From Methanosarcina sp. MSH10X1 (GTDB taxonomy: Archaea; Halobacteriota; Methanosarcinia; Methanosarcinales; Methanosarcinaceae), in the NCBI RefSeq assembly GCF_004099695.1, contig NZ_SCHL01000016.1, positions 1 to 64,000 of the forward strand: a DNA stretch of 64,000 bases, written 5' to 3'. The position numbers were made by a program, and so were the translations under genes. This document shows, piece after piece, positions 30,984-56,300 of this stretch. Positions within the stretch are counted from its first letter, which is position 1, and the number at the start of each line of letters is the position of its first letter. The notes below the pieces were generated by a model. The model had not been told where the DNA came from. It ran no database searches and saw nothing but the letters and a program-made list of their open reading frames with translations.

Positions 30984-31642
30984 TCCGGTGTCTTCGTATT
31001 AATTATATAAAATCGTATAGGTAAACAATAAAAAGTTAAGTTAAAATTCGGTTTTAAACATGCAGTTCAAATCGGCAGTTAAAACTGGATTTTTATTTTT
31101 ATAAGATATTTATTATTTTAATAGTTTTCCCACCAAGCCTCTTACAAAAAATAGCTTGATCACAAGCCTTTTCAAAAAAGGCTTGAGCGAAAACTTTTTC
31201 AAAAAAAGTTTTATCAAAAACCATGCTTTATATAAACCGGCGTAACCGGGGCGTGATCGACTGGCGCAACGCAAGCCTTTTCAAAAAAGGCTTGAGCGAA
31301 AACTTTTTCAAAAAAAGTTTGATCAAAAACCATGCTTTATCGAAAACGTCACTATCGGCGTGATCGACCGGCGAAACGCAAGCCTTTTACAAAAAGGCTT
31401 GAGCGAAAATCCCCACGTAACGGCGTGATAAACCGGCGCAACGGTTTCGGGACAACGGTCGCGGCTCAAGAGGGCTATTTAAGGGTAAGAAGAACCTTTA
31501 ATTCACTCAAAAGAGATAATTCTGGGCAAGTGAAGTTATTTTTCACTCACCTGGAGAACTGACTAATAAGGTCACTTCTTCACGATTTGCCTTCTGTTTG
31601 AGATTTATCATAAGTTTAGGAGCGGGAAGAGAATAACAGATT
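30984..31642. other. Intergenic region dominated by a hairpin repeat array
   Basis: No protein gene is supported. An open frame at 31332-31562 is made largely of the repeat DNA. The array (31164-31442) is listed separately. 31003-31110 is AT-rich and holds the larA promoter on the minus strand. 31443-31640 is plain sequence without recognised elements. Confidence 0.6.
31164..31442. repeat. Three ~108-bp tandem repeats, each with hairpins
   Basis: Units start at AAGCC 31164, 31273 and 31380 (periods of 109 and 107 bp; the third is cut short at about 31442). Units 1 and 2 carry two stem-loops in a row: AAGCCTTTT-C-AAAAAAGGCTT and AAACTTTTTC-AAAAAAAGTTT, followed by ATCAAAAACCATGCTTTAT and a GC-rich CGGCGTGATCGACYGGCG part. 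Unit 3 keeps the first hairpin but has lost the second. The layout resembles REP/BIME-type extragenic palindromes. Confidence 0.75.
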
Positions 31643-33770: not shown

Positions 33771-34309
33771 GAAAAAAAGTAAGACCAGCATACTCACATG
33801 CACCGCCAAGCCATGCGAGGTATTAGACCCTTTGCACCCTGCACCTGATACCAACTGCCCATAGATACCACTGGGAGCCATATGTAGTATATAAGAAACT
33901 CTTATACCCATCACTAAGACACTACCCGCCAACCTAGAATTGTTCGAAAAAAATGAAACTAGCAAAAATAAGAGAATACAGCATAGAAAATTCAAATATA
34001 AAGAAAATAAGAGGTATGAAGCCCGTTTATTGATCCCATTTTTATGCTTCTGTCAAAGTAGGAATTAATATCTATCAATATCTACAAATTGACAGAAAAT
34101 TTATGTGGAGTAACTATCAATATCTATCAATATCTATCAAATTGATAGAAAATATCATATGGAGTAACTATCAATATCTATTAAATTGATAGATCTAGTA
34201 AACGAAGTAACTATCAATATCTATCAATATCTATCAAATTGATAGAAAATATCATATGGAGTAACTATCAATATCTTGCAAATTGACATAAAAAGCTTGA
34301 GACAATGGC
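33771..34309. other. Intergenic region between the DUF2117-like gene and fic
   Basis: 33785-33905 is a small GC-richer island (CACCGCCAAGCCATGCGAGG and following) in otherwise AT-rich DNA; it has several short inverted matches but no RNA family that I recognise. 33906-34060 is AT-rich. 34065-34289 is the fic upstream repeat array, listed separately. Confidence 0.5.
34065..34289. promoter_or_regulatory. Iteron-like array upstream of the Fic gene
   Basis: Units beginning GTAACTATCAATATC start at 34110, 34164, 34207 and 34261, with a diverged partial unit before them (34065-34109). The units at 34110-34163 and 34207-34260 are identical over 54 bp. The unit at 34164 is 43 bp because it has one CTATCAATAT step of 11 bp fewer. 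Each full unit holds the near-palindrome TCTATCAA-A-TTGATAGA. The array ends 20 nt before the Fic ATG. This is the look of a multi-site operator, possibly bound by the Fic protein's own C-terminal winged helix. Confidence 0.75.
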
Positions 34310-35611
34310 ATGAAACTACCAAAGACACCTGAATTTTCAAAGAAAACTCTTGAAGAAGCAGGGAAATTGCTGCATAATAATCAAGTTGCAGATTTAGTTA
34401 ACCAATACAATGAGAAATATCTTCATTGGGAAGAATTAAAGTACAGAGAATTCCCCTTTGACCCGATTATCATATGGAATATAATGAAAATATCAAGGTT
34501 ACTAAAAGCTAAATCTCTTAAGTTTGGGAACTGGGTTTTCAAGTACACTTTAATAGACGAATTTCAGGAAAAACTCCATATCCTAGACAAATCAGCGGCA
34601 GGAAACCTTTTAAGCAGTCTCGAAGCTTTACAAGATAATAAAAAAAAATATATAATTAGTTCATTGATGGAAGAAGCAATAGCTTCAAGCCTAATTGAAG
34701 GAGCAGCAACGACAAGGGAAGTTGCGAAGAAGATGTTGCAGGAAAACAGGAGGCCTACAAACAAAGGCGAAAAAATGATTGTAAATAATTACATTACAAT
34801 GAAGCATATTTTGAACTTAAAAAACGAATCTCTAACCCCTGAAAAAATTCTTATAATCCACAAGTTGATTACGAATGAAACTCTTGAAAAAGCTCAATAC
34901 GAAGGCAACTTTAGAAAAAACGATGAAATTGCAGTTTATTCCCACGACGGGACCTTACTTCACAAACCTGTAGAACACACAGAAATTCCTAAATTGATTG
35001 ATGAATTATGTAACTTTGCAAATAACAATGAAGAAGGTTTTATTCATCCTGCGATAAAAGGGATAATCATTCATTTCATGATCGGATTCATCCATCCTTT
35101 TAACGACGGTAATGGTAGAACTGCAAGAGCTCTTTTCTATTGGTACCTTCTCAAAAATGATTACTGGCTCTTTGAATATATGGCAGTATCAAAAGTAATA
35201 AATGATTCAAAAAAGCAATATCGGAATGCTTATCTCTATACAGAGTCTGACCGAACATTGAATGACTCCGGAGATCTTACTTATTTTATTAAGTATAATC
35301 TCCACTGCATTAAAAAAGCTCTTGATGAAATTCTTGAATATCTGGAAAGAAAACAATATGAGCAGTCTCAAGCCCTGAAAATTATAATAGAATCTGGTAA
35401 TCTTACTTTACGGCAGGTTGAGATACTTAAACATTATTTAAAGCAACCTGAGAAGCACATCACAATTAAGGAGATAATGACCACTTATAGCGTGGCATAC
35501 GCTACAGCTAGAAGTGACTTGCTTAGTCTTGAGAAGTTAGGTTACGTTGAAAAAAGAAAGAGTGGAAAAAAGCTTATTTTTGTTTTCAAGGAAATAGACA
35601 AGATAGGTTGA
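34310..35611 (+). CDS. Fic family protein with inhibitory motif and C-terminal winged helix
   Basis: A 433-residue protein. The catalytic Fic motif HPFNDGNGR (H262 to R270) is complete, so it should transfer AMP or another nucleotide part to hydroxyl groups of target proteins. The N-terminal inhibitory helix motif (S/T)xxxE(G/N) is present as SSLIEG (S126 to G131, E130 the blocking glutamate), making it a class II self-inhibited Fic. The C-terminus (about residues 363-430) is a winged helix (ITIKEIMTTYSVAYATARSD, then LEKLGYVEKR). AT-rich codon use and a location at the edge of the accessory region suggest horizontal acquisition. It has no partner antitoxin gene nearby. The repeat array directly upstream suggests autoregulation. 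Confidence 0.9.
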   Translation: MKLPKTPEFSKKTLEEAGKLLHNNQVADLVNQYNEKYLHWEELKYREFPFDPIIIWNIMKISRLLKAKSLKFGNWVFKYTLIDEFQEKLHILDKSAAGNLLSSLEALQDNKKKYIISSLMEEAIASSLIEGAATTREVAKKMLQENRRPTNKGEKMIVNNYITMKHILNLKNESLTPEKILIIHKLITNETLEKAQYEGNFRKNDEIAVYSHDGTLLHKPVEHTEIPKLIDELCNFANNNEEGFIHPAIKGIIIHFMIGFIHPFNDGNGRTARALFYWYLLKNDYWLFEYMAVSKVINDSKKQYRNAYLYTESDRTLNDSGDLTYFIKYNLHCIKKALDEILEYLERKQYEQSQALKIIIESGNLTLRQVEILKHYLKQPEKHITIKEIMTTYSVAYATARSDLLSLEKLGYVEKRKSGKKLIFVFKEIDKIG

Positions 35612-36276
35612 ATTATATACATGTGTTTAGTATCAATATCTACCTAATTAGTATATCTTATACACGAAACTAACTATGAATGTCTATCAATATTTGTCAA
35701 ATCAATAGAATTTTTTTCCATTAAACGTCCATATGGCCTATTATTTTGAAAGAAGCTCTCATAATTTACCTATACCCACCGAACGTATGTTCAACTTTCT
35801 ATCCGTGTCTTGATTTTCTGGCTCTGAGAAATCTATCCAAATCAGCTGCAAATAAATAAGTAAAAGCACATCAAGCAATTAAGCTCAAACAAATGGTTAT
35901 TCTTTATTAAAATCTATAAAGAACTACCATTCTTTTTATTCATATTCAAATTTCTGAAAACGTTTTTGAATTCCCCCACTTAACCATTGTCATATCTCCC
36001 GACTTAAGGGTTCTATGTACTCTTATATATTTATCTGAGAATGGAAAAATTGTTAGATTCTGGTAACTTTATACACCTATTCGATTGTTAGTACAGCTAC
36101 AACTTACTTTCTTGAGAACTGGGAAGTACAAGAAATGTTTAGCAACGAAATACATACCAAACAAAAGAGACGTATACAAATGTCTGAAAGGGTAAATGGA
36201 TTATCACGATCTTCCGAAAATATTTAATACATTCAAAGATAAATTCTGAAGTTAGCTGGGAAAATGGGGGTCTTAT
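35612..36276. other. AT-rich intergenic region after fic
   Basis: 35631-35710 holds two decayed copies of the fic upstream repeat (TAGTATCAATATCTACCTAA and ACTATGAATGTCTATCAATA followed by TTTGTCAAATCAATAGAA). The remainder, to 36270, is AT-rich with stop codons in all frames at short distance. A TATATATTTAT stretch near 36024 could be a promoter. No gene or RNA is recognised. Confidence 0.5.
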
Positions 36277-53542: not shown

Positions 53543-53554
53543 AAAGAAATCCGA

Positions 53555-53686
53555 ATATGTCTAAAGGTCAATCCACATATGTCTAAAGGTCAATCCACAT
53601 ATGTCTAAAGGTCAATCCACATATGTCTAAAGGTCGATCCAGATATGTCTAAAGGTTAATCCACATATGTCTAAAGGTTAATCCAG
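53555..53686. repeat. Six 22-bp tandem repeats after hsdM
   Basis: Six head-to-tail units of 22 bp begin at 53555, 53577, 53599, 53621, 53643 and 53665, built on ATATGTCTAAAGGTCAATCC with few changes; a decayed seventh follows. There are no spacers, so it is not a CRISPR array. It begins 12 nt after the hsdM stop and ends about 100 nt before the convergent propeller gene's stop. Confidence 0.9.
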
Positions 53687-53788
53687 ATAGATCTGAAAAT
53701 TAAAGAATACTCAAATATTCTTTTTATCCCCGCCGAATCCAGAAATTCAGATGTTTTTCAGAAAAATTGTGTGGTGGATGTCCACCAC

Positions 53789-56035: not shown

Positions 56036-56122
56036 CGTGTTTGGAAGACATCTTAACCTTTACTGTGTTTACTTTTCTGCATTTCAGTTTTTAATTACAA
56101 TATTATATTTAATTATAGTATT

Positions 56123-56300
56123 GTATGTTACTGTATTCTGTATGTGACTGTATTCTGTATGTTACTGTATTATTCTGTATGTTACTGTATGCAGTATGTT
56201 ACTGTATTCTGTATGTTACTGTATTCTGTATGTTACTGTATGCAGTATGTTACTGTATGCAGTATGTTACTGTATGCAGTATGTTACATCTTACTGTATT
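56123..56300. repeat. About ten ~17-bp tandem repeats
   Basis: Units of GTATGTTACTGTATTCT or GTATGTTACTGTATGCA run in tandem, with a few longer units, between the start of the PHP gene and the 3' end of rlmE. Open frames through the array (rich in CYCMLLY) are by-products of the repeat. Confidence 0.8.

Follow-up and report, generated by a model that had tools for sequence, protein, structure and literature searches.

What role is played by a set of phased repeats that stands directly in front of a single gene, when that gene encodes an enzyme with its own DNA-binding domain? The question is raised by the window analysed here, a stretch of 64,000 nucleotides from Methanosarcina sp. MSH10X1 (positions 1 to 64,000 of contig NZ_SCHL01000016.1, forward strand), in which an array of repeats precedes a gene for a Fic protein with a C-terminal winged helix. 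A first-pass annotation of the letters had proposed a one-gene, self-regulating Fic module whose winged helix-turn-helix reads the repeats, which it termed iterons. The proposal of a self-regulating module received strong comparative support from co-occurrence and co-variation, but the term 'iteron', which implies replication, is unsupported, with no rep or par gene beside the array. The repeats, their strict geometry, their co-occurrence with the gene and their co-variation with residues 397-398 of the protein are all computed features of the DNA. In our view the locus is quite probably a self-contained, autoregulated Fic module: the array would be bound by the winged helix of the protein encoded behind it, which would most likely act there as a cooperative repressor.

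The presence of the repeats was confirmed, and their number lies far above chance expectation. Matches to CTATCAATATCTATCAA with up to three mismatches number 11 in the window, all of them within 34062-35700, while shuffled sequences gave an expectation of 0.25 +/- 0.48 and never more than two, so that none of 100 shuffles reached 11. When the genome (3.56 Mb, 55 contigs) was searched with CTATCAATATCTATCAAA at up to two mismatches, this locus and one place on contig 11 were recovered, and the array was found beside no other gene of its own genome in that search. The units and the gene are laid out as follows.

34062-34094, plus strand: degenerate outermost array unit CTATCAATATCTACAAATTGACAG, from the sequence and the mismatch search
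34110-34163, plus strand: array unit 1, with CTATCAA at 34114, 34124 and 34134 and inverted TTGATAG at 34142-34148
34164-34206, plus strand: array unit 2, one 10-bp step fewer, with CTATCAA at 34168, CTATTAA at 34178 and inverted TTGATAG at 34186-34192
34207-34260, plus strand: array unit 3, equal to unit 1 over 54 bp, with half-sites at 34211, 34221 and 34231 and the inverted one at 34239-34245
34261-34289, plus strand: degenerate array unit 4, nearest the start, CTATCAATATCTTGCAAATTGACAT, ending 20 nt 5' of the ATG
34310-35611, plus strand: gene for a predicted class II Fic protein of 433 residues with a C-terminal winged helix (open reading frame, Pfam and model)
35498-35536, plus strand: codons of the recognition helix (residues 397-409, YATARSDLLSLEK; AlphaFold2 helix and co-variation), of which residues 397-398 track the half-site sequence
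35630-35710, plus strand: two decayed units 3' of the gene, in the orientation of the array

The unit is built of same-strand CTATCAA half-sites in 10-bp steps, followed by one inverted half-site, TTGATAG, as closure. This gives the palindrome CTATCAA-A-TTGATAG at 34134-34148 and 34231-34245, and the variant CTATTAA-A-TTGATAG at 34178-34192. The first-pass annotation had reported starts of GTAACTATCAATATC at 34110, 34164, 34207 and 34261, two units identical over 54 bp (34110-34163 and 34207-34260), a gap of 20 nt between the array and the ATG at 34310, and decayed copies downstream of the gene, all of which were borne out, the 54-bp identity sitting inside a 97-bp repeat. Its internal step of 11 bp was wrong, as CTATCAATAT recurs in steps of 10 bp (34114, 34124, 34134 and 34211, 34221, 34231). 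The 43-bp unit is 11 bp shorter than the 54-bp unit, which is due to one missing 10-bp step and one further missing base.

Judged by its motifs, the protein is a class II Fic adenylyltransferase, because the active motif and the inhibitory motif are both conserved in the family. The Fic motif HPFNDGNGRTAR at residues 262-273, with catalytic positions that are invariant among 22 homologs, conforms to HxFx(D/E)GNGRxxR, the active motif by which class II Fic adenylyltransferases are recognised, and the inhibitory SxxxEG motif lies N-terminal of it at residues 126-131 (S126-S-L-I-E130-G131), where S, E and G are invariant, in agreement with the (S/T)xxxE(G/N) pattern of the class II inhibitory helix. 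Pfam assigns residues 175-280 to Fic (PF02661, 6e-19) and residues 370-419 to a DeoR-like helix-turn-helix (HTH_DeoR, 3.2e-5). In the AlphaFold2 model (predicted local distance difference test score of 86) the recognition helix at 397-409 is followed by a two-stranded wing. Structural matches of the model were Dde_2494 (4rgl, Z 29.6), SoFic (3zcn, Z 27.1) and CbFic2 from Coxiella burnetii (8cil, Z 26.9). The PADLOC SoFic model matches the protein at 3.3e-43 over almost the full model length, whereas its score with the NCBIfam SoFic equivalog is 52 bits, far below the cut-off of 550; on these scores it would be a relative rather than an ortholog.

The array was then followed through related genomes. 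A homolog at 76-81% identity is present in 10 of the 31 genomes of the genus Methanosarcina, and all those with an intact upstream region carry units before the start, several also having one after the stop. Order-wide, 88 of 186 genomes contain a homolog (E <= 1e-20), and members of the order that are 40-57% identical have arrays with different letters. Most homologs of 37-57% identity, whether from the order, the phylum or bacteria, have the array at the same place, array-bearing members being found in the wider archaeal phylum, in Bacteroidota and others, in Spirochaetes and on virus or prophage contigs. A protein-blind upstream search for the commonest inverted-paired 7-mer recovered the array motifs in most close members; in the same search the distant Fic proteins (25-30% identity) displayed no clear excess of inverted-paired repeats. 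The co-occurrence of repeats and Fic winged-helix genes, which had been put forward as a check on the original proposal, was thus observed across archaea and several bacterial phyla. In IMG/VR, one 17-mer match apiece was seen on 16 contigs, with no array on any of them, a result that is uninformative on a viral origin of the repeats.

Co-variation of the repeats with the recognition helix had been named as the companion check, and the half-site does follow residues 397-398. The best T-NNN-AA motif class upstream of each gene was chosen without sight of the helix. Helices with Y-D were accompanied by TACCAA in 23 of 23 cases, those with Y-Q or Y-E by TACTAA in 46 of the 48 assigned, and those with Y-A or Y-G by TATCAA in 16 of 19, the remaining three having TATTAA and all being VSYA helices, with S at position 396. 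Two Y-Q rows (L084 and L088) were scored TATTAA; neighbouring Y-Q members, and the upstream DNA of L088 itself, also have TACTAA. By sequence, the bacterial lineages conform to this archaeal rule, with CTACCAA for Y-D (L113), TACTAA for Y-Q/E (L199, L205, L282) and CTATCA/TTGATAG for Y-A (L204), and the N-Q helix is accompanied by TCCTAA (L117, L200, L252, L284). Exact pairs at the expected spacing were found in six of nine bacterial loci, each at p = 0.0005 to 0.005 against shuffled upstream DNA. The other three (L204, L252, L284) were missed by strict 6-mer pairing, their second half-site having one mismatch or lying one 10-bp step further off, and were read by eye. Genome G149 encodes three paralogs, about 40% identical, with arrays of TATCAA, TACCAA and TACTAA, respectively, and none of them has paired sites of the others; five further genomes have two paralogs each, whose motifs likewise differ. 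Since paralogs in one genome have differing private arrays, base composition and species history are disfavoured as explanations of the match between helix and half-site.

Other helix types were seen among more distant relatives. The Spirochaete homologs L238-L251 form a clade whose helices read V-K-T-I-R and whose upstream palindromes have the form GGGAAATTAG...ATTTCCC, which adds one more specificity class. By inspection, Treponema V-K helices go with ATTTCCC, and motifs were also seen with the N-F and N-Y helices of Bacteroidota. Palindromes of the form AACTCAA...TTGAGTT near the start codon are common to L313 (Klebsiella plasmid pKp_SB617_1) and L118 (a cyanobacterium), both with N-T-A-R helices, and these Fic relatives are possibly another specificity class.

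The geometry is strict. Among archaeal members, direct half-sites are spaced by 10 bp in 107 of 141 cases and by 11 bp in 23, and of 145 distances from direct to inverted half-site, 142 measure either 7 or 17 bp. At 46 of 83 loci a TATA-like hexamer lies within 22 bp after the palindrome, mostly at +6 to +8, compared with 15% in shuffles. In the Methanosarcina homologs this hexamer, GAAAGAAATATAGG, lies between the last two units, and the last unit is therefore near the expected transcription start. The array layout is that of a promoter operator.

Binding of the protein to the array, its cooperativity and its sign, repression, are what we infer. In the mechanism that we favour, the C-terminal winged helix would read CTATCAA half-sites, with a pair of subunits on the palindrome and further subunits stacking on direct half-sites that share a face of the helix and are spaced by one turn (10 bp), so that a cooperative array would lie across the promoter. 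The occupied array would cap the level of a potentially toxic AMP-transferase (AMP, adenosine monophosphate). Autorepression is the most likely outcome because the palindrome adjoins the expected B recognition element (BRE) and TATA box, and the start-proximal unit is near the expected transcription start. Several points weigh on the other side. An archaeal operator just upstream of the BRE can activate as well, the window's own TATA element is weak, and the sole other genomic copy of the motif, on contig 11, has no Fic gene next to it. A tree built from the Fic part, without the helix-turn-helix, contains at least four helix-class changes and six motif changes, with two to three independent pairs of helix and motif change, all concordant and too few for a sign test. 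Given so few independent changes, weight was placed on the same-genome paralogs and on the transfer of the rule to bacteria.

The position of the locus differs between relatives. The Fic gene of the window lies between genes for a DUF2117 protein and a T2SSE-family ATPase, which in the closest relatives (G006 and G029) are separated by about 850-900 bp that lack both Fic gene and array. The segment concerned is the following.

33780-36210, no strand: segment unalignable to G006 and G029, its ends approximate because the intergenic DNA has diverged

In several other members of the genus the Fic gene is flanked by a TM2-like and a phosphatase-like gene, a locus that in the window genome has neither Fic gene nor array. 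In Fic-less G003, G022 and G024 (L026, L040, L042) orphan array units adjoin the phosphatase-like gene, and these are likely deletion scars; they fit gene loss, because recombination between flanking units would remove the Fic gene. Thus the array appears to travel with the gene, on the basis of empty sites in the closest relatives, different loci elsewhere and the orphan units.

Such mobility could be taken to mean that the repeats mark the ends of a one-gene mobile unit, or its target or recombination sites, with a role in movement and not in regulation. The repeats do stand on both sides of the gene in the same orientation, gene and array vary in location from genome to genome, the closest relatives having the neighbouring genes without them, and the orphan units at the usual locus in Fic-less relatives are scar-like. 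However, no recombinase is encoded alongside, in many homologs the units after the gene have decayed or are missing, and recombination between direct repeats would also explain the scars; the arrays track both the recognition helix and the TATA position, unlike mere end sequence. We regard this explanation as improbable. A role of the palindromic units as RNA hairpins in a 5' leader is very improbable: the units are able to fold, but their predicted folding barely beats that of shuffled sequence (z = -1.5, with 18 of 200 shuffles as good), for which it was rejected, and neither helical phasing nor co-variation with a DNA-binding helix would be expected of an RNA element. That the units serve replication or partition, as iterons or a centromere, is scarcely credible. 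Phased direct repeats do look like iterons or parS-like arrays; this array, however, tracks a Fic enzyme gene over many genomes and phyla, and an iteron-type replication origin was rejected as its neighbours, the DUF2117 and ATPase genes, include no initiator gene.

A closer competitor, which we consider unlikely but plausible, holds that the protein binds the array and activates its own promoter, or that the array mainly controls the state of the enzyme, DNA-bound dimers being inactive or de-AMPylating and freed on infection or stress. This enzyme-state switch is the main rival of repression or an addition to it. CbFic2 goes from AMPylation to de-AMPylation on binding DNA (PMC10628234), the toxicity of E. 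coli SoFic is governed by its C-terminal domain through an unexplained mechanism (PMC12249575), and the half-sites exceed the need of simple repression and could titrate the protein. In contrast, CccR is a repressor whose toxicity is independent of its DNA-binding dimerisation, and the archaeal palindrome is often fixed beside the TATA box, which fits promoter control. A wider and more doubtful proposal is that one-gene Fic modules are widespread in archaea and bacteria and that the array sets both expression and catalytic state, as the sensor of an anti-viral system. Here private arrays would be read by a simple code, residues 397-398 against the variable bases of T-NNN-AA, array-bound enzyme would be stored or de-AMPylating, and enzyme released, for example by invading or replicating DNA that titrates it, would be a toxic AMPylase.

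Autorepression by a Fic protein with a helix-turn-helix is already known from CccR of Yersinia pseudotuberculosis, a class II Fic protein with a C-terminal helix-turn-helix that binds as a dimer to inverted repeats of its own promoter and represses itself (PMC9755527). The operators of secreted-effector relatives in pathogens were taken as published. CccR and the window protein share their domain order, and co-occurrence and co-variation make an operator matched to its own helix-turn-helix probable for the window protein. However, the CccR operator consists of two 10-bp inverted sites 26 bp apart, while that of the window combines 10-bp-phased direct half-sites with a compact palindrome in several units, and CccR is a secreted effector whereas the window protein is archaeal and shows no sign of a secretion context.

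SoFic (Shewanella 3EQX/3ZCN; E. coli Sofic, PMC12249575) has the same inhibitory helix, Fic motif and C-terminal winged helix, and its fold extends over 337 residues of the 3zcn alignment, at an identity of only about 19%. In E. coli H397 SoFic is reported to be followed by an AS1-like small antitoxin gene; none was recognised 3' of the window gene, where 35611-36130 holds unconvincing open reading frames of 26-39 residues. DNA binding by SoFic was not demonstrated as of PMC10628234, and PMC12249575 makes no mention of it for the C-terminal domain. CbFic2 resembles the window protein in domain order and in binding DNA via a DeoR-type helix-turn-helix. It was assayed on random DNA, with no known operator (PMC10628234), whereas the window operator is probably sequence-specific. 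Autoregulated toxin-antitoxin operators are similar in that a toxin-like enzyme locus is under its own DNA-binding part, with palindromes over the promoter, but here enzyme, inhibitory helix and DNA-binding domain form one polypeptide, with no second gene. On its likeness to SoFic, from which the anti-viral role is drawn, the module would group with the one-gene systems that resemble SoFic and are probably anti-viral.

In the open-access literature, nothing was found on phased arrays, a recognition code or an archaeal case for Fic proteins of this type. The phased array, the family-wide recognition code, the archaeal setting and the link to the SoFic anti-phage family thus appear to be new. 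SoFic-like Fic enzymes protect bacteria via abortive infection, and the restraint of the toxic protein and the role of its C-terminal domain have been called open (PMC12249575). Here co-variation links that domain to a phased operator array preceding its own gene, in archaea and several bacterial phyla, and the array suggests how a dangerous single-gene Fic enzyme restrains itself. The regulation of the whole SoFic-like class becomes directly testable, a few residues of an uncharacterised member predict its operator, and the family offers orthogonal regulators as a set, with three of them in a single genome.

Other repeats were noticed in passing. On contig 11 (G000:C11:248259-248730; L009 2260-2730) six identical 37-bp direct repeats GTTCTTATGGTAGTTGTAGGGTATGTAGCATAGCTAC lie in an apparent integrated element with a tyrosine recombinase, and most of the intervals between them are different near-perfect palindromes. 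These repeats resemble those of clustered regularly interspaced short palindromic repeat (CRISPR) arrays in size, and no exact copy of their core was found in IMG/VR. A solitary unit after the last of them is identical to the Fic array over 34 nt. Within the window, an intergenic tandem repeat at 31163-31409 has a period of 109 bp, 2.3 copies and AAAAAAGCTTGA repeats inside it, and tandem arrays lie at 53548-53689 (22 bp, 6.5 copies, AATCCACATATGTCTAAAGGTC) and 56122-56287 (17 bp, 9.6 copies).
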